From Pseudobdellovibrionaceae bacterium (GTDB lineage Bacteria > Bdellovibrionota > Bdellovibrionia > Bdellovibrionales > Bdellovibrionaceae), in NCBI GenBank assembly GCA_019637955.1, contig JAHBUS010000002.1, forward strand, positions 434,001-498,000: a stretch of 64,000 nt of DNA, read 5' to 3'. The notes under the pieces were generated by a model, which did not search any database, was not told the DNA's origin, and saw only the letters and a list, made by a program, of their open reading frames with translations. The position numbers and the translations under genes are program-made. Below are positions 47,442 through 55,288 of the stretch, in pieces (positions within the stretch are counted from its first letter, which is position 1; every line of letters begins with the position of its first letter).

Positions 47442-49568
47442 ATGCGCGGAAAGTTCGTCACAATCTTTTTAGGCTTGCTCGGACTCCTGGTCGCGGCGGT
47501 GGTTTTTCGCGTCGATCAGGTGCTGTTCGCGGATAAGCTCGACTGGAGCGAGTCTCAGGCGCGCGTTCAGGTGGGCGCCGTTTCCGAATCGCTGCAAAGT
47601 GAGCTGCGCCTCGTGCGCGAGACGCTCGAACTCGCGTGGCCGCAAATTCAGGCCGAGAAAAAAGACTATCCTGCCGGTAAGCCCTACTCCCGTTTTCAGA
47701 TGATCGGCACCCTCAGCCAAGCGGCGAACGGGGAGTGGTCGTTGGGCGAGAAGTTCTTCCTCGAAGGCTCCAGCGTCAAGTCCTGGGCCACCAACTACTC
47801 GGTGCTCGCGCTCCGTCAGCTCAACGCCAAAAACATTCCCGTTGGTGGTTCGGGTGTTTTGTCGATCCTGGATCCGTCACGCCGGATTTACTTTTTGGTC
47901 GTGAACCGCGTGAACGCGGGCTGGCTGGCGGCGCTGGTCGGCCCCGAACTCTTTCAGGGCGCGGTGGACCGGCAAAAAGGAAGCCTCGGCCAAGTCTACG
48001 CGGTCAATTCGCTCGGCCAAACTTTGGGACATACCACGCCCGAATACGTGGGCAGCTTGCTCACCGATGACCCCCTCGTCGCCGATTTGATGAAGTCCGA
48101 AGGCGGAGCGGGTGCCGGGATGTTCAAAACTGCGCAAGGGCCCGTGCAGGGGCTTTACGAACAGGTGCCGAACACCAACGTTTACGTTGTCGTCTCGACC
48201 AAGCTCTCGCAGATCCTCGGCAACCGCAAAGAGGTGCAGATCCAGCTGATTCTGCTGGGCCTCGGTTTCGCGCTCGTCGGGTCGGCGGTGATTTTGGCGG
48301 TGAGCAAACCCAGCACGCCCAAAACGGCGGTGGCCGCGATTCCCGCATCGGTGATGCCCGCTCCCGTGGTCAAGCCCGTTCTTGGTTCGTCCCCGGGTGC
48401 CGACAGCCAGCGCCGCGAGGCCTATTCGAAAGCGGCGGCGGGACTTGCGCATGAATTGCGCGGCCCCTTGCTCAGTCTGCTCGGTCAAGCGCGCCTGCTC
48501 CGTGAGAACACAAGCGATGAACACTTGGCCCAAGAGCTCAAAAAACTCGAAGAGGGCGCGCGCGAAGCGCATGGCACCGTCCACAAAATGCTGACCTTCG
48601 CCGGCGAAAAAGATGAGCCCGTGGTTGAGACCTCGGTGGCCGAAGTTTTGAAGCGCACGATCCGTCTTCTTGATTCGAAAATCCGCGGCAAGGGCATCGA
48701 GATTCTCACCAACGTGCAGGCCGATGCGCCGCTCATCAAAGGGCAGCCGCTCATGCTCTCGCGTGCGTTCGAGCAGGTTCTGCTCAACGCGATCGAATCC
48801 ATGGAGCGCAGCCTCGAGCGCAAACTGTTCGTCGAGTTGTCGACGGATGAGAATGGCGATATCCGCTTGAACATTCGTGACACGGGTTCGGGCATCGCGC
48901 CCGAAAATGTGGCGCAAGTTTTCGATCCGTTCTTCTCGACGAAAAATAAAAACGACCACTCGGGTTTGGGGCTGTCTTTGGCTCTGGGCGTGGTGAAAGG
49001 TTCGGGCGGCGATATTCAGGTGCGTTCCGAAAGCGGAAAGGGGACCACCGTGGAAATCACGTTTAAAAAAGATGCCGAGATTCTCGCCGCGGCCCCCGCC
49101 GATACCGCTCCTCGAGCCGCGAGCCGTCCCGAAGCCTCGTCTCCGTTCGCGCCTCGCGAGAGCGAACCGGCACCCGCGCAAACGGCAGAGACCGATCTTC
49201 CGGGCGTCTTGAACGAGAAACTCATGCAGCGCACGCTGGACATGATCGACCGTCTCGACGAACTCAATGAGCCGTTCGTGGACAAGCGCCTTGAAGTGCC
49301 GGTCGTCAAATCCCGCACCACGGACGAGAACGAAGACTCGTTCAGCTTCGGCGGTTCCGCCGAAAACGCGCAGAACGAATCGATCGAGTTTTCACCCGAC
49401 GATCAGCTCAAAGCCGACGGTTCGAACGCCTCGGGCTCGAGCCAAGAAGACTTCATGAAATTCACGGCCAAGATCGACAAACCAAAGTCGGTCAAGCCGT
49501 CGCGCGCGCGCCAAGAACGTCTGCTTGAAGCCGACGTGCACATCCGGCGTCCCGGGGAGCGCACGTGA
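47442..49568 (+). CDS. Membrane sensor histidine kinase
   Basis: A 708-residue hybrid-free histidine kinase. A transmembrane helix (about residues 5-24) and a second (about 266-289) bracket a periplasmic sensor region. The phosphoacceptor H337 lies in GLAHELRGPL, followed by a coiled dimerisation region. The ATP-binding domain shows an N box (LLNAIESME), G1 (DTGSGI) and G2 (GLGLSLALG). After about residue 540 there is a 165-residue acidic, low-complexity tail. No receiver domain is fused. The degenerate GGDEF gene starts in the last 4 bases. Confidence 0.92.
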   Translation: MRGKFVTIFLGLLGLLVAAVVFRVDQVLFADKLDWSESQARVQVGAVSESLQSELRLVRETLELAWPQIQAEKKDYPAGKPYSRFQMIGTLSQAANGEWSLGEKFFLEGSSVKSWATNYSVLALRQLNAKNIPVGGSGVLSILDPSRRIYFLVVNRVNAGWLAALVGPELFQGAVDRQKGSLGQVYAVNSLGQTLGHTTPEYVGSLLTDDPLVADLMKSEGGAGAGMFKTAQGPVQGLYEQVPNTNVYVVVSTKLSQILGNRKEVQIQLILLGLGFALVGSAVILAVSKPSTPKTAVAAIPASVMPAPVVKPVLGSSPGADSQRREAYSKAAAGLAHELRGPLLSLLGQARLLRENTSDEHLAQELKKLEEGAREAHGTVHKMLTFAGEKDEPVVETSVAEVLKRTIRLLDSKIRGKGIEILTNVQADAPLIKGQPLMLSRAFEQVLLNAIESMERSLERKLFVELSTDENGDIRLNIRDTGSGIAPENVAQVFDPFFSTKNKNDHSGLGLSLALGVVKGSGGDIQVRSESGKGTTVEITFKKDAEILAAAPADTAPRAASRPEASSPFAPRESEPAPAQTAETDLPGVLNEKLMQRTLDMIDRLDELNEPFVDKRLEVPVVKSRTTDENEDSFSFGGSAENAQNESIEFSPDDQLKADGSNASGSSQEDFMKFTAKIDKPKSVKPSRARQERLLEADVHIRRPGERT

Positions 49569-51082
49569 TTCTGACTCCCGAGATTCGATCGAAGTTCACC
49601 GTGTTCTTGTTCCTGGAGGATCTTGATCAGGGAACGGATCTGCGAGGCCATTTGGCCGTGTCGGGCTACGAAGTTTTCATGTTCCGCGATCAGGACACGA
49701 TTTTAAGCCGCATCAAAGAGGCCGCGCCGCACGTGGTGATTTTTGAAATCGAAGCGCTGCAGACAACGCTGAGCGAGTTCGTCGAAAAGGCTTTGGAAGC
49801 CAACAACGAAGTCGCGTTCGTTCCCATGGCGTCGGTGTCGCAGGCGCTCGCGCTGAACGAGTACCGTGAGTACAACTTTGCCGCGCTTTTCACCAAGGGC
49901 GACGACCGCGATTTGCGCGCGCTCTGGATCGTCGATCAAGTCTGTTCGGAACTTTATTTTCAGTATCAGAACGAGCAGCTTCTGGATCAAGTGGCCGAGA
50001 TGAAGCGCAAAACCGAGACGCAAGAGGCGCGCATCAACCAACTCGACACGCGCAAGCGCGAGCTCGAATCGGTGGAGCCCTTTCAAGTCAAAACCGAGCT
50101 GCAAGTTTACGCGCGCGCGAAAAGCAAAGAAGAGATCATGGACGCGTTTCTGCATCACCTCGAGCAGAAGTGCCTGCGCCAGAATCTCAAGCTCTGCGCG
50201 TTGGTGCTGAAGTTCCTGCCGACCGTGCAGTCGTTCGTGGCGACGCAGGCGCTGGGCCTGGATCTCGAAAAGATCAAGGGCGTGGGCGCGCGTCTCGAAA
50301 AAGAAGAGTCCCAAGATCTCATGGGTTTTCTCGAATCCGGCAAGTTTCCCGCGCAGTTGATTCAGCTTCTCGAAACCGGCCTCGCGGTGAAACATTTTGT
50401 CGGTAAGCCCTTGGTTCTACCCGATGCCATCGAAGCCTTGATGGTGTTCTGGAGCCCGAACGGAATTTTGAAAGCCGAAGATTTTGAGAACGAGTACATG
50501 GTGTTTCAGATCGCCTATCAGAATCTGCACCTCGCGCGCCGTCTGAACGAAACCGACACGCGCGACTCGGTCACCGATCTCGAGGGCCGTGAATTTTACT
50601 TCAAAAAAATCGACGAAGAGATCGCCCGCGCGCGCCGATTGCAAAAAGCCATTTCGGTGGTCAAGGTCTCGATCGACCATTTGCCCGAGATCGAGCAGTC
50701 GTTCGGCGTCGGCAACCGCAACGCGGTTTTGCGCACGGTTGCGACGCTCATCAAGCGCACCAGCCGGGTCAACGATTTCTCGTGCCGCACGGACGACAAC
50801 GAAATTTCGCTCGTGCTTCCGCATTGCCCGCGCAAAGGCGCCGCGATTCGCGCCGAGCGCATCCGCCGCATGATCGAGAACCACTCGTTCAACTTGAGCG
50901 GTCACCGCGTGACCTTGAGTTGCGGCATCAGTGAATACCCCACGCTTTGTTCGAGCAGCGAAGAGCTTGAACAGACCACCCAGCAGGCCCTGAGTTTCAT
51001 TCAAGAAAAAGGCGGCAATAAGGTCTGCTTGTACCGTGCGAGACAGGATTTCAAACCTGATTTCGACGTGCCGCCGATTTGA
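49565..51082 (+). CDS. Degenerate GGDEF protein with intact I-site
   Basis: A 505-residue protein. The N-terminal about 120 residues resemble a receiver domain without clear catalytic aspartates; a coiled coil (about 140-170) and a GAF-like middle follow. The C-terminal GGDEF domain has DDNEI at residues 410-414 in place of GG(D/E)EF, so it is very unlikely to make c-di-GMP. RVND at 401-404 lies exactly five residues upstream, where the inhibitory c-di-GMP-binding RxxD site sits, suggesting a c-di-GMP receptor. The GTG start overlaps the kinase gene by 4 bases. Receiver-like signalling with that kinase is inferred. Confidence 0.85.
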   Translation: MILTPEIRSKFTVFLFLEDLDQGTDLRGHLAVSGYEVFMFRDQDTILSRIKEAAPHVVIFEIEALQTTLSEFVEKALEANNEVAFVPMASVSQALALNEYREYNFAALFTKGDDRDLRALWIVDQVCSELYFQYQNEQLLDQVAEMKRKTETQEARINQLDTRKRELESVEPFQVKTELQVYARAKSKEEIMDAFLHHLEQKCLRQNLKLCALVLKFLPTVQSFVATQALGLDLEKIKGVGARLEKEESQDLMGFLESGKFPAQLIQLLETGLAVKHFVGKPLVLPDAIEALMVFWSPNGILKAEDFENEYMVFQIAYQNLHLARRLNETDTRDSVTDLEGREFYFKKIDEEIARARRLQKAISVVKVSIDHLPEIEQSFGVGNRNAVLRTVATLIKRTSRVNDFSCRTDDNEISLVLPHCPRKGAAIRAERIRRMIENHSFNLSGHRVTLSCGISEYPTLCSSSEELEQTTQQALSFIQEKGGNKVCLYRARQDFKPDFDVPPI

Positions 51083-51087
51083 GGCGC

Positions 51088-52269
51088 ATGGCTTTTTCAT
51101 TCGAACAGCACCGGCCCACGCAGGCCGTGATCCATTTGGATCATTTGCGGCACAATCTCCAACTCCTCGAGTCGCTGACGGCCGAAGGGCAGTTTTTTTG
51201 CCCGATGGTGAAAGCCAATGCTTACGGACACGGCGACGTCGAGATCGCGCTGGCGCTCGAGCAGGCGGGCGTCACGGCGATGGGCGTGGGATTGATTGAA
51301 GAGGGCGTGCTGCTTCGAAGCATGGGCCTGAAGAGCCAACTTTTGTTTTTTGGCACGATGGACGCCAAAGGCGCCCGGGCCTGCATCGACGCGAAGCTCA
51401 CGCCGGTTTTAAGCTCGTGGGATCAAGTGCGCGCGCTGCGGGCGTTGATTCCGAACGGCCAAACCTTCGGCGTTCATCTCAAGTTCGACACCGGGATGCA
51501 CCGCTTGGGATTTGAACCCGATCAGGTTGAAAAACTGGTCGAGTACTTTCACGAGAATCCCGAACTCGACCTGCAAGGCGTGATGACGCACTTGCATTCG
51601 GGTGAAGATGCGCTCGACCCGCAGGGCGAAAGCTTCAAGCAGCTTCGCGCTTTCGAGAGTCTTGCCGGCGAATTCGATGCGTGGGCCCCCTGGCGTCACA
51701 CGCTGAACTCGGCGGGACTGCTCAACCTCGCGCGGCTGCGACGTTCGGGCCGAGACGAGATGGCGGGCGTTTCGTTGAAACAGGGAGTGCGTCCAGGTCT
51801 GGCTTTGTATGGACTTTCACCGGTCGAGGGCTTATCCGAATTGGGAGAGTTCAAGCCCGTCATGAGTTTGCGCTCGAAAGTGATCCGCGTTCGCCGGATC
51901 AAGCAGGGCGAAGGGGTCGCGTACGGCCACCGCTGGAAAGCGCCTCGAGATTCGGTGATCGGCGTGGTGCCGGTGGGTTATGCCGACGGGTATCACCGCG
52001 CGCTCTCGGGTCGTGCTCAAGTCCTGTGCGACGGACGGCGTTTGCCGGTGGTCGGCAATGTGACGATGGACTATTTCATGATCGATATGACGGACTTGGT
52101 CGGGGACGGGACCCCCGAGGCTTTTCAGTGGAAGGAAGTCACTCTCTTTGGCTATGATTCCAAAGGGAACTTGCTGAGCGCAATTGAACTTGCGGAATGG
52201 TCACAGACCATCTCGTGGGAAATTTTGACCAGCGTGGGCGAACGGGTTCCGCGAGTTATTGACGGGTAG
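51088..52269 (+). CDS. alr: Alanine racemase
   Basis: Alr converts L- to D-alanine for peptidoglycan, with PLP. The PLP lysine is K42 in VKANAYGHG. The GFEPDQV and HLHSGED segments and the late GVAYGHRW motif with the catalytic tyrosine are present, as is VGYADGY. The 393-residue length fits the family. ATG 51088 is used; a TTG at 51079 overlaps the GGDEF stop. It is followed by the mla genes after 14 bases. Confidence 0.95.
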   Translation: MAFSFEQHRPTQAVIHLDHLRHNLQLLESLTAEGQFFCPMVKANAYGHGDVEIALALEQAGVTAMGVGLIEEGVLLRSMGLKSQLLFFGTMDAKGARACIDAKLTPVLSSWDQVRALRALIPNGQTFGVHLKFDTGMHRLGFEPDQVEKLVEYFHENPELDLQGVMTHLHSGEDALDPQGESFKQLRAFESLAGEFDAWAPWRHTLNSAGLLNLARLRRSGRDEMAGVSLKQGVRPGLALYGLSPVEGLSELGEFKPVMSLRSKVIRVRRIKQGEGVAYGHRWKAPRDSVIGVVPVGYADGYHRALSGRAQVLCDGRRLPVVGNVTMDYFMIDMTDLVGDGTPEAFQWKEVTLFGYDSKGNLLSAIELAEWSQTISWEILTSVGERVPRVIDG

Positions 52270-52283
52270 TGGAAGGAGCCACG

Positions 52284-53102
52284 GTGGAACAAACCTCCGT
52301 TTTCATTCAAGCGCGCGAGCGCGTGAAGTCGAACGTGATCGATTTCGTTAACGAAATCGGCGCGATGGTTCAGTTCGGCTACTCATCCATCAAAGTCGGC
52401 TTTGAAAAACCATACCGTTATCTCGAGATCATCCGCCACATGGAGTTCGTCGGGAATCAATCAGTCTTCATCATCGCGCTGACGGGCCTGTTCACCGGCC
52501 TCGCGCTGTCGTTTCAAGTTTACCTCGGATTTAAAATGGTCAACGCCACGAATCTGGTGGGACCGATCGTCGCGCTCGGCATCACGCGCGAACTCGGCCC
52601 GGTGCTCACCGGTTTGATCGTCGCCGCGCGCGCGGGCGGCGCGATGGCCGCGCGCCTGGGCACCATGCGCGTGAACGAACAGATCGACGCGCTCGACGTG
52701 ATGGGCGTGAACACCCGGCAGTATCTGATCGCGCCGCGAATTTGGGCCACGGTCATCTGCATGCCGCTGCTCACGGCGATTTTCGATTTCGTGGCGATGA
52801 TCGGCTCGTGGTTCTTGGTCGTGAAGCTTGTCGATCTCGACGAGGCGATCTTCTGGGACAAGGTCAAATCGGTTCTTGAGTTCCGCCACATCAACGAGGG
52901 CCTTTTCAAAGCCGCGGTCTTCGGACTGGTCTTCTCCGTGGTTTGCACGTACCGCGGATTCAACACCACGGGCGGAGCCAAAGGCGTGGGCGAGGCCACC
53001 AATCGCGGCGTCGTCACCTCGATGGTGATGATCATTATCCTCGATTACTTCCTCTCGAATTTGATTCGGATCTTCTACCTCCTCATCGGAACGAAGGTTT
53101 AA
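52284..53102 (+). CDS. mlaE: MlaE-type ABC transporter permease
   Basis: MlaE is the membrane subunit of the MCE-type phospholipid transporter. The 272-residue protein has five to six hydrophobic helices and the family stretch ITRELGPVLTGLIVAARAGGAMAARLGTM, plus EQIDALDVMGV. GTG 52284 has AAGGAG five bases upstream and is preferred to GTG 52269. The stop is directly followed by the ATPase ATG, so the mlaE-mlaF-mlaD genes are coupled. Confidence 0.93.
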   Translation: MEQTSVFIQARERVKSNVIDFVNEIGAMVQFGYSSIKVGFEKPYRYLEIIRHMEFVGNQSVFIIALTGLFTGLALSFQVYLGFKMVNATNLVGPIVALGITRELGPVLTGLIVAARAGGAMAARLGTMRVNEQIDALDVMGVNTRQYLIAPRIWATVICMPLLTAIFDFVAMIGSWFLVVKLVDLDEAIFWDKVKSVLEFRHINEGLFKAAVFGLVFSVVCTYRGFNTTGGAKGVGEATNRGVVTSMVMIIILDYFLSNLIRIFYLLIGTKV

Positions 53103-53915
53103 ATGGGCACCGAGAAGACGCCAGCGGCGGATCCCAAAAAAGAGACCTTCGATGTGACCAAGCTGGAGCCCGCGATTAAGATCGAAGACGTTTGGAAAAC
53201 CTTCGACGGCAAAGAATACGTCGTCAAAGGCATGAATTTGACGATTCCCAAAGGCAGTCTCACCGCGATCATCGGTTTTTCGGGGACGGGCAAGTCGGTG
53301 ATTCTGAAACACATTCTTGGTCTTTACCGTCCCACACGTGGACGGATCGAAGTTTTGGGTCAAGACTTGGCCCACATGGACAACAACGAGCTGACCAAAT
53401 TTCGCCGCCGCTTCGGCGTTCTCTTTCAAGGAGCCGCGCTCTTTGACGATATGACCGTTCTTGAAAACGTCTGTTTCCCTTTGATCGAGCACCGTCCTGA
53501 ATTGAGCATCGACGAAGTCATTCAGATCGCGACGCAAAAGTTGGTCGAGGTCGGTCTCGAAGCGAAACACTACGAGAAACTGCCGTCGCAAATTTCGGGC
53601 GGTATGCAAAAACGCACGGGACTGGCGCGGTCGCTGGCCCTTGATCCAGAAATTCTTTTCTACGACGAACCCACCACGGGATTAGATCCCATCCTCACGG
53701 AAATGGTGGATAATTTGATTCTGGAAACCCACCAGCGAACGAAGGCGACATCCGTCATGGTCTCGCACGACCTGCAGGCCGCCTTTCGAATCGCCGATTT
53801 TGTTGCGATGCTGAACGCCGGTGAGGTTTTGTTGTTTGGCCCGCCCGATGTCTTTTTTAATACGGACATCGAGCTGGTGAACAAGTTCGTCGCCAAAGGG
53901 ATGAGACATCAATGA
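53103..53915 (+). CDS. mlaF: MlaF-type ABC transporter ATPase
   Basis: MlaF powers the MCE phospholipid transporter from the cytoplasm. Walker A is at residues 58-65 (GFSGTGKS), the signature is ISGGMQKRTGLARSL, and Walker B is EILFYDEPTTGLDP, with the switch histidine in MVSHDLQ. The 270-residue protein has a short 22-residue N-terminal extension before the first strand. The start is the ATG directly after the mlaE stop; the end overlaps mlaD by 4 bases. Confidence 0.95.
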   Translation: MGTEKTPAADPKKETFDVTKLEPAIKIEDVWKTFDGKEYVVKGMNLTIPKGSLTAIIGFSGTGKSVILKHILGLYRPTRGRIEVLGQDLAHMDNNELTKFRRRFGVLFQGAALFDDMTVLENVCFPLIEHRPELSIDEVIQIATQKLVEVGLEAKHYEKLPSQISGGMQKRTGLARSLALDPEILFYDEPTTGLDPILTEMVDNLILETHQRTKATSVMVSHDLQAAFRIADFVAMLNAGEVLLFGPPDVFFNTDIELVNKFVAKGMRHQ

Positions 53916-55288
53916 ATTTGCTTCGGGCTGCGGAATTTAAAGTCGGTGCGTTGGTTCTCGGGGTGGCGACACTGATCGCGGTCATGTCCGTGCAGGTCAG
54001 TGACAACCCGAGTTTCTTGGGACGCAGTAAAAAAGCGCACTTCCTCATGGCGGATGCCGGCGGTCTCGTGAAAGGATCGCAAATCAAAACCGCGGGGATT
54101 CCCGTGGGCACGATCTCCAATATCAGTCTCGAAGACGGGATGGCGCGCGTCGATCTCAGTTTCAAGCGCGACACCGAGCTCACGGTTTCGGCGGCGGTCG
54201 TGATCAAGTCGGCCGGGATCCTGGGCGACAAGTACATCGACGTTTATCCGGGCTCTCCGACCGATCCTCCCTTGGAGGACGGCGGTCGTATCAACAATAT
54301 TAAAGACAAGGGCTCGCTCGACAGCGTGATCAGCTCGGTCGGCGACATCGCCAATTCGCTCAAGGACGTCTCGGCCAACCTCAAAGAGGCGGTCAGTGAA
54401 GACGGCAGCCGCAAGCACGTTCTCGGCCGCATCATTTTGAATATTGAAAAAGTGACGCAAGACCTCTCCGAGATCACGTCGCAAAACAAAGGCAAAGTGA
54501 ACGAGATTGTCGATCAGGTTCACGGCATCACCAAGACCCTGGACGAGATCCTCAACGACCCTTCGGACAAGGGCTTCAAAAAACGTTGGGCCGTGGCCTT
54601 GGACCGCATCGACAGCTCGCTCAAAAACATCGATGAGATCACCACCAAGATCAACAATGGCGAAGGCACCATCGGAAAACTCGTGAGCGATGAAGCCACC
54701 GCCGAAAAAGTCGAGAATGCCATCGACAGCGTCAACGAATTCTTGGGCGGCGCGGCCACTCTGCAAACGGGCCTCGACTTCAAAGCGGATTACCTCGCCA
54801 ATATCGGCAAAACCAAAACGCAAGTGGGCATCCGCCTGCAACCGGGCTTGGACCGCTACTACTATATCGGTGTGGTGGATGACCCGGCGGGCGTGGTCGA
54901 GACGACCGACATCAAGACGACGACGTCGACGGGCGAAAGCAAGATCACCGAAGAGAAGACCTACCACAACGAACTCAAGTTCAATTTGATCTTCGCCAAG
55001 AACTTCTACGACCTGACCGTGCGCGGCGGGATCATGGAGAACTCGGGCGGTGTCGGTTTCGATTACACCGTTTGGAATCAGAAGCTGAAGTTCACGCTCG
55101 ATCTCTTCGACTTCACGAACCTCAACGTCAGGACGCAAGTGCAATACAATATCTGGAAGGGGATTTACCTTTCGGGTGGTGTCACAGATATGTTAAACAA
55201 AGGCCAGAAGTACTCCAACTATCTGGGCGCAGGTCTTTTGCTGACGAACGACGATTTGAAGCTGCTGATGACCAAAGTGCCCATGTGA
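53912..55288 (+). CDS. mlaD: MlaD/MCE protein with a C-terminal beta-rich domain
   Basis: A 458-residue protein with one N-terminal helix (about residues 8-27) and a single MCE domain (about 40-115), including GLVKGSQIKTAGIPVG. A helical, coiled region follows (about 140-270), then a C-terminal part (about 290-458) of alternating hydrophobic strands (YYYIGVVDDPAG, RGGIMENSGGVGFDY, GIYLSGGVTDML). The MCE domain carries lipid; the C-terminal strands look like a barrel or beta sheet that could reach the outer membrane. Standard MlaD is only about 180 residues. ATGA overlap with mlaF. Confidence 0.9.
   Translation: MNLLRAAEFKVGALVLGVATLIAVMSVQVSDNPSFLGRSKKAHFLMADAGGLVKGSQIKTAGIPVGTISNISLEDGMARVDLSFKRDTELTVSAAVVIKSAGILGDKYIDVYPGSPTDPPLEDGGRINNIKDKGSLDSVISSVGDIANSLKDVSANLKEAVSEDGSRKHVLGRIILNIEKVTQDLSEITSQNKGKVNEIVDQVHGITKTLDEILNDPSDKGFKKRWAVALDRIDSSLKNIDEITTKINNGEGTIGKLVSDEATAEKVENAIDSVNEFLGGAATLQTGLDFKADYLANIGKTKTQVGIRLQPGLDRYYYIGVVDDPAGVVETTDIKTTTSTGESKITEEKTYHNELKFNLIFAKNFYDLTVRGGIMENSGGVGFDYTVWNQKLKFTLDLFDFTNLNVRTQVQYNIWKGIYLSGGVTDMLNKGQKYSNYLGAGLLLTNDDLKLLMTKVPM

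Follow-up and report, generated by a model that had tools for sequence, protein, structure and literature searches.

The window analysed here, 64,000 nucleotides of the Pseudobdellovibrionaceae bacterium assembly GCA_019637955.1 (contig JAHBUS010000002.1, positions 434,001 to 498,000 of the forward strand), contains a pair of genes encoding a membrane sensor histidine kinase and a protein with a degenerate GGDEF domain. The kinase open reading frame (ORF; 47442-49568, forward strand) encodes 708 residues and the second ORF (49565-51082, forward strand), which starts with GTG, encodes 505. The two overlap by 4 bases (49565-49568, common sequence GTGA), in agreement with an earlier note made from the sequence alone. 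From synteny and from the GVNEF motif of its counterpart in G036, a genome fitting Bdellovibrio bacteriovorus HD100, the second protein is assigned as CdgA from a different genus of that family, the ortholog of B. bacteriovorus CdgA (Bd3125). It is an inactive enzyme that very probably serves only to sense cyclic di-GMP (c-di-GMP), and the adjoining kinase probably no longer controls it by phosphate transfer. The features of the pair, in window positions, are the following.

47442-49568, forward strand: membrane sensor histidine kinase, 708 residues (ORF, Pfam, alignment and model), with a first transmembrane helix, an alpha/beta sensor region (~73-255), a second transmembrane helix (~262-288), DHp (318-387) and ATPase (395-545) domains and a disordered tail (549-708)
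48450-48452, forward strand: kinase phospho-acceptor His337, retained here and absent in many orthologs
49536-49553, forward strand: conserved kinase C-terminal peptide V699-H-I-R-R-P704 (VxI-R-R/K-P)
49554-49559, forward strand: GGGGAG, from the sequence the likely ribosome-binding site of the GGDEF gene, within the kinase gene directly 3' of the VxIRRP codons
49565-51082, forward strand: CdgA ortholog, 505 residues, with a pseudo-receiver, a long helix, a GAF/PAS-like middle domain and a degenerate GGDEF domain
49565-49900, forward strand: pseudo-receiver domain, residues 1-112
49745-49747, forward strand: Glu61, replacing the phospho-acceptor Asp
49907-50071, forward strand: long helix of the model, residues 115-169, a probable coiled coil
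50078-50464, forward strand: middle domain, residues ~172-300, GAF/PAS-like by model only
50561-51034, forward strand: degenerate GGDEF domain, residues 333-490 (Pfam and structure matches)
50669-50671, forward strand: Ser369, replacing the metal-binding Asp
50765-50776, forward strand: inhibitory site (I-site) R401-V-N-D404
50792-50806, forward strand: lost active site D410-D-N-E-I414, at the GGDEF position
50858-50860, forward strand: Arg432, at the secondary I-site position

The pair belongs to a conserved gene run, nadB< kinase> CdgA> alr> mlaE> mlaF> mlaD> purH>, whose part from nadB to mlaD is common to the window and G036. GVNEF, found in the syntenic G036 ortholog, is the motif reported for CdgA, Bd3125 (PMC3271064). 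Five GGDEF genes were counted in G036 and four in G006; HD100 is reported with five, and Bd3766 as not conserved in strain Tiberius (PMC3271064). The ortholog of B. bacteriovorus strain kdesi (L080) carries GVNEL. The window protein is 38% identical to the G036 CdgA over query residues 7-502, and it shares with Bd3125 both the locus and similarity over the full length. In 78 of 80 fetched loci alr lies within ~150 bases 3' of CdgA on the same strand, and the contigs of the other two end inside CdgA. Matches came from 100 genomes, of which 18 were not fetched; 26 genomes gave no match, most of them not looked at. Records L071-L090 largely repeat other sampled genomes and were not counted separately. 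A search of viral contigs returned no relatives. L074, a metagenome bin publicly deposited under the title Streptomyces griseus, contains a CdgA ortholog of the Bdellovibrio kind, and this title looks wrong.

CdgA of HD100 is reported to have no cyclase activity and to bind c-di-GMP with a dissociation constant (Kd) of ~2 uM (PMC3271064). It is found at the prey-facing (prey-invading) pole, and its loss slows invasion (PMC3271064, PMC3983030). The earlier note had named CdgA as a degenerate GGDEF receptor that matters in Bdellovibrio predation. Partners reported for the HD100 protein are RomR and SgmX (Bd2492), a TPR protein (PMC3983030, PMC11025332), and in two-hybrid tests it binds the EAL protein Bd1971 (PMC6717892), HD100 being reported with one EAL protein (PMC3271064). 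A search of the genome of the window (G000) at E 0.001 returned 13 matches to PilZ and none to EAL; a CdgA-EAL protein contact of the Bd1971 type is therefore probably absent from this bacterium. The HD100 and window proteins are alike in gene order, in domain plan by alignment, in the degenerate GGDEF with RxxD five residues upstream and in the absence of the receiver Asp. In contrast, the window protein has DDNEI where HD100 has GVNEF, and Glu at the acceptor position where HD100 has Ser.

Pfam recognises the GGDEF domain at residues 333-486 of the window protein with 82 bits, and among the five GGDEF domains of its genome it is the weakest (85 bits vs 134-158). The replacement of GG(D/E)EF by DDNEI, described in the earlier note, was found at residues 410-414, and RVND does lie in the register of the I-site, with five residues between D404 and D410. 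The metal-binding Asp is also lost (S369). We take this position to have the role that it has in PleD. Altogether the changes affect four of the five motif residues as well as the metal Asp and the FK/ND positions, and neither GG(D/E)EF nor the metal-binding Asp, by which a diguanylate cyclase would be recognised, is present. Some changed motifs do stay active, for example AGDEF in VCA0965 (PMC3974145). With this many positions altered, and with the HD100 protein inactive, we nonetheless regard residual or altered cyclase activity of the window protein as extremely improbable.

The I-site behaves differently from the active site. Our main alignment holds 81 orthologs (the window and 80 loci), six with GGEEF and 75 degenerate. 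R401 and D404 are invariant in all 75 degenerate orthologs and are listed first and second among the 165 columns of the domain; the only further invariant column is P459 (74 of the 74 orthologs having it), and the GGDEF-motif positions rank 107, 156, 84, 31 and 62 of 165 in the same conservation listing. The position of R432 is Arg in 67 of 74 degenerate orthologs, and the metal Asp is retained in 3 of 74 assessable ones, the window not among them. We assume that Arg432 corresponds to PleD R390 and SgmT R794. For SgmT R794 a secondary I-site role is described (PMC3509222, PMC3359988). Of twelve further stretches read, ten gave diverged degenerate orthologs, and in the other two (L198, L201) all GGDEF proteins were unrelated ones. 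RxxD is present in eight of the ten orthologs, or 83 of 85 degenerate orthologs overall. The exceptions are the two genomes read of one genus, g5, in which R401 is K in L190 and G in L191, and D404 is N in L190 and still D in L191. The middle domain is missing from these two CdgA proteins (11-13 of 129 columns filled). The L190 and L191 proteins are shortened to ~320 residues.

RxxD on its own is rejected as a mark of a receptor. It is present in four further intact copies (L185-L188) and in all 40 intact paralogous GGDEF domains of these genomes, picked among the matches listed, which indicates that RxxD is an inherited default. The telling signal in these alignments is RxxD outliving the active site in many lineages. 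The earlier note had seen in the loss of the active site with retention of the I-site the mark of a c-di-GMP receptor: the receptor itself is well supported by the alignment, RxxD being kept in register while the active site varies, and by the binding reported for the HD100 ortholog, and it is the use of RxxD by itself as a mark that falls. Binding of c-di-GMP by the window CdgA is accordingly predicted from its relatives. A related possibility is that the I-site binds another cyclic dinucleotide, for instance 3',3'-cGAMP, or several, and not c-di-GMP alone. Given the Kd of ~2 uM for c-di-GMP in HD100 (PMC3271064), and with no cGAMP data for CdgA in the literature consulted, we consider this rather improbable.

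The AlphaFold model of the window protein (mean predicted local distance difference test score, pLDDT, 87.8; predicted template modelling score, pTM, 0.44) shows a receiver-like N-terminus, the long helix, a GAF/PAS-like middle and the GGDEF domain. Ranked by E-value, PleD and WspR (PA3702) head the list of Foldseek matches, with query TM-scores of only ~0.3 because the domains are placed differently. Taken alone, the GGDEF domain matches with Z ~25 and a root-mean-square deviation (rmsd) of 1.4-1.7 A over 157-166 residues (6d9m, 3ign, 4iob). The Pfam scan found no receiver and no match for the middle domain. The N-terminus, said earlier to resemble a receiver, does align with orthologs bearing canonical receivers, which makes its descent from a receiver clear at the level of the alignment; the structure matches to PleD, WspR and DgcR, superposed as whole chains (rmsd 20-36 A), begin at residues 6-11.

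Little of the receiver's chemistry is left. Of the acidic pair, phospho-Asp, Thr/Ser and Lys that make a working receiver, the phospho-acceptor Asp (E61), the first acidic-pair Asp (L17) and the Thr (A89) are lost, and only E18 and K111 remain. The full set is present in the five GGEEF orthologs with a complete N-terminus and in none of the 70 assessable degenerate orthologs. The closest of these is L132 (family f10), which has GPDEF and a near-complete receiver (D17, D61, K) without one acidic-pair residue, a possible intermediate between cyclase and receptor. Of the 75 degenerate orthologs, 25 have D at position 61, 16 have S, 6 have E and 5 have a gap there, the others carrying still different residues; with such variation a selected phospho-mimic role of Glu61 is not supported. 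The window CdgA would thus be unphosphorylated.

These observations bear on the link between phosphorelay and c-di-GMP that the earlier note had considered possible, here read as phosphate transfer from the kinase to CdgA by which the binding of c-di-GMP would be gated. The receiver descent of the N-terminus, the intact kinase of the window and outgroup loci with the full set of residues speak for it. Yet the receiver lacks its phospho-acceptor Asp and other key residues, here and in the degenerate orthologs at large. Of the 67 proteins upstream of degenerate CdgA that could be assessed, 42 have no kinase His or none that can be recognised. The phosphorelay is therefore not supported, and we judge it very improbable.

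The window kinase itself is well preserved. Pfam identifies HisKA and HATPase_c, and His337, N449, D480 and the glycine boxes are kept, so that the H, N, G1, F and G2 boxes are all recognisable. Its transmembrane helices were assigned by eye from hydrophobic sequence and the model. In this model (mean pLDDT 71) a long N-terminal helix and the sensor region precede the kinase core, and the chain is disordered from residue 549 on. No Pfam match was obtained for the sensor region, and the structure matches, DivL (4q20) among them, are dominated by the kinase core. The upstream kinases of the 75 degenerate CdgA proteins fall into 25 with His and ATP boxes (the window included; L108 is scored here with a doubtful H-box context), 26 with ATP boxes and no His, and 16 with neither. 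The remaining 8 are cut or shorter than 400 residues and were not scored as kinases. Some of the 16 have no kinase-core match at all, and their kinship is taken from position and tail only. The 26 that keep ATP boxes without the phospho-His resemble DivL-type kinases, from which the window kinase differs in keeping its His.

Near its C-terminus the kinase tail ends in V-x-I-R-R/K-P. A strict core, [VIL]R[RK]P within the last 40 residues, was found in 55 of the 77 upstream proteins, where shuffles of the same tails would give 0.78, and a loose core, [VIL][RK]xP, in 68 of 77, where they would give 9.9. This set takes in every upstream ORF from 60 residues upwards, fragments too, and kinship among the genomes makes such counts too high. 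None of 328 neighbouring proteins and none of 81 CdgA proteins has the strict core; the loose one is present in 10 alr proteins and in 2 of CdgA. Enrichment extends to flanking positions outside the anchor, with V at -2 in 54 of 74 and D at -6 in 43 of 74. Among the outgroup kinases the core is strict in L186, loose in L187 and altered in L185, and the diverged loci have IRxP (L192, L196, L197) or a [VI]RPV variant (L193-L195 and L200). The peptide persists where the kinase core is undetectable, for example in L047 and L068.

Because each of the six Arg codons and four Pro codons is in use among 54 strict-core cases, and because the peptide is spread over families, we argue from these comparisons that it is under selection as protein sequence. 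A by-product of the overlapping ribosome-binding site is unlikely, since the VxIRRP codons precede GGGGAG and synonymous codons are mixed. A short helix is predicted elsewhere in the low-confidence tail (residues 591-609, window 49212-49268), near the conserved L605 and P611, and is possibly a second contact site.

The tail could also serve another purpose. The kinase may be active on a different response regulator and share only its transcript with CdgA, the tail binding for instance a polar hub protein. The intact His, N, G1 and G2 set of the window kinase would fit such a role, as would the missing acceptor Asp of CdgA and the known hub partners of B. bacteriovorus CdgA, RomR and SgmX (PMC3983030). 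However, the adjacency of kinase and CdgA is kept across the order (of the 71 loci whose upstream ORF reaches 400 residues or more, 64 have a gap of -11 to +8), even where the kinase His is absent. Moreover, in genus g5, the one case of a broken-I-site CdgA, the tail peptide is gone (L190) or eroded to IRR without the Pro (L191). We hold this alternative to be somewhat unlikely.

Intact relatives of the locus give an indication of where the pair came from. In f11, an outgroup from another order of the class, all three genomes have the same gene order (nadB of L185 lies beyond the contig), an intact receiver, GGEEF or GGEEY and the kinase H box. In five assessable loci of four sister families (f2, f3, f5, f8) the receiver set, GGEE(F/Y) and the kinase His are all intact. 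A tree of five neighbour genes was built by a quick method under LG+G4 from 80 rows, after four loci that had not even two of the neighbour genes were set aside. Close to its base stand the intact families f2, f3, f5 and f8 along with f7 and f9, two degenerate families of a single genome each, and f1, the family of the window, forms one clade. At the least, this tree requires two changes of the GGDEF state and seven of the kinase His; its deep branches are partly unresolved and the branch of L057 is long, so the loss counts are not fixed. Since outgroup and sister families keep the kinase His, the receiver and GGEE(F/Y), an intact ancestor that underwent loss is the simplest explanation, and a phospho-regulated cyclase appears to have turned into a receptor in place. 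A correlation of GGDEF loss with kinase-His loss was discarded, as only two independent pairs carry no statistical weight.

PopA of Caulobacter crescentus, which presumably has two receivers, was compared with the window protein by description only and differs in acting in the cell cycle. The likeness lies in a response regulator with a degenerate A-site and an intact I-site, in which c-di-GMP binding drives polar sequestration (PMC3509222, PMC3359988). Two Myxococcus xanthus proteins are also related in design: ActA combines a receiver with a degenerate GGDEF that has an I-site, and SgmT unites a histidine kinase and a degenerate I-site GGDEF in one protein (PMC3509222, PMC3359988). SgmT is a single cytoplasmic polypeptide that has a receiver of its own and serves DigR as partner kinase, whereas the window has two proteins, the kinase being membrane-bound. 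With cyclases of the PleD and WspR type the window protein shares domain order and fold, and the locus orthologs in f2, f3, f5, f8 and f11 look like such intact enzymes; the window protein differs in having no active site and no phospho-Asp. The window protein as such is of the CdgA/PopA kind already known.

Taking these results together, we regard as probable, with some reserve, the reading in which CdgA binds c-di-GMP at its I-site, the receiver is a phosphate-independent relic and the kinase is coupled through its VxIRRP tail. The ancestral locus would have been a two-component cyclase made of a sensor kinase and a receiver-GGDEF enzyme, whose cyclase and phosphorylation sites were both lost in the lineage of the window. 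The GGDEF domain would make no c-di-GMP and would bind it at the I-site (R401 and D404, helped by R432), this binding being the input. The receiver relic and the middle domain would be contact surfaces and not a phosphate switch. The membrane kinase would stay coupled to CdgA by its C-terminal VxIRRP, a link by tail and not by phosphate, and would give membrane placement and perhaps a signal by contact. The outcome would be a membrane- or pole-bound c-di-GMP sensing complex without phosphorelay. The experimental backing, from HD100, covers only the c-di-GMP input at the I-site; the sequences themselves show that the proteins are orthologs, that the active site and the receiver Asp were lost while the I-site was retained, that the outgroup state is intact and that the tail is conserved.

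Several observations weigh against this reading. The window kinase, with His337 and ATP boxes, may be active on some target. CdgA is a putative partner of the tail. The loose core is missing in 9 of the 77 upstream proteins, in five of which (L059, L062, L063, L067, L117) a near variant can be seen by eye. L070 misfits a strict link between tail and I-site, as its tail is missing though its CdgA keeps RxxD. The g5 case is a single genus in which the middle domain is lost too, and L191 keeps Asp404 with a kinase ending in ..TIRRDFDA. RxxD in the intact paralogs shows that its retention is partly inheritance, and the backing for c-di-GMP binding comes from HD100 and not from this member.

A broader proposal, which we put forward tentatively as a possibility, is that in this order a two-component cyclase became a phosphate-free receptor complex, the kinase being an anchor and sensor that holds CdgA by VxIRRP, and that phosphotransfer was dropped several times with the pair kept.

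The genes for the kinase, cdgA, alr, mlaE, mlaF and mlaD abut with overlaps or almost no gaps (47442-55288), and almost every fetched locus of sufficient length has the same order from kinase to mlaD, placing a c-di-GMP receptor within a run of cell-envelope genes.

In the open-access literature searched we found nothing on the kinase partner, the repeated loss of its His, the C-terminal peptide or the intact outgroup locus; no paper on the kinase neighbour was found there under the guessed locus tags Bd3124, Bd3126 and Bd3127. For inputs to CdgA besides c-di-GMP, the conserved kinase neighbour is a ready candidate partner, and the tail peptide is a short candidate contact that is directly testable. 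With its intact outgroup copies the locus would show a path from cyclase to receptor, in which the active site and the phosphorylation site decay and the I-site and the tail mostly stay.

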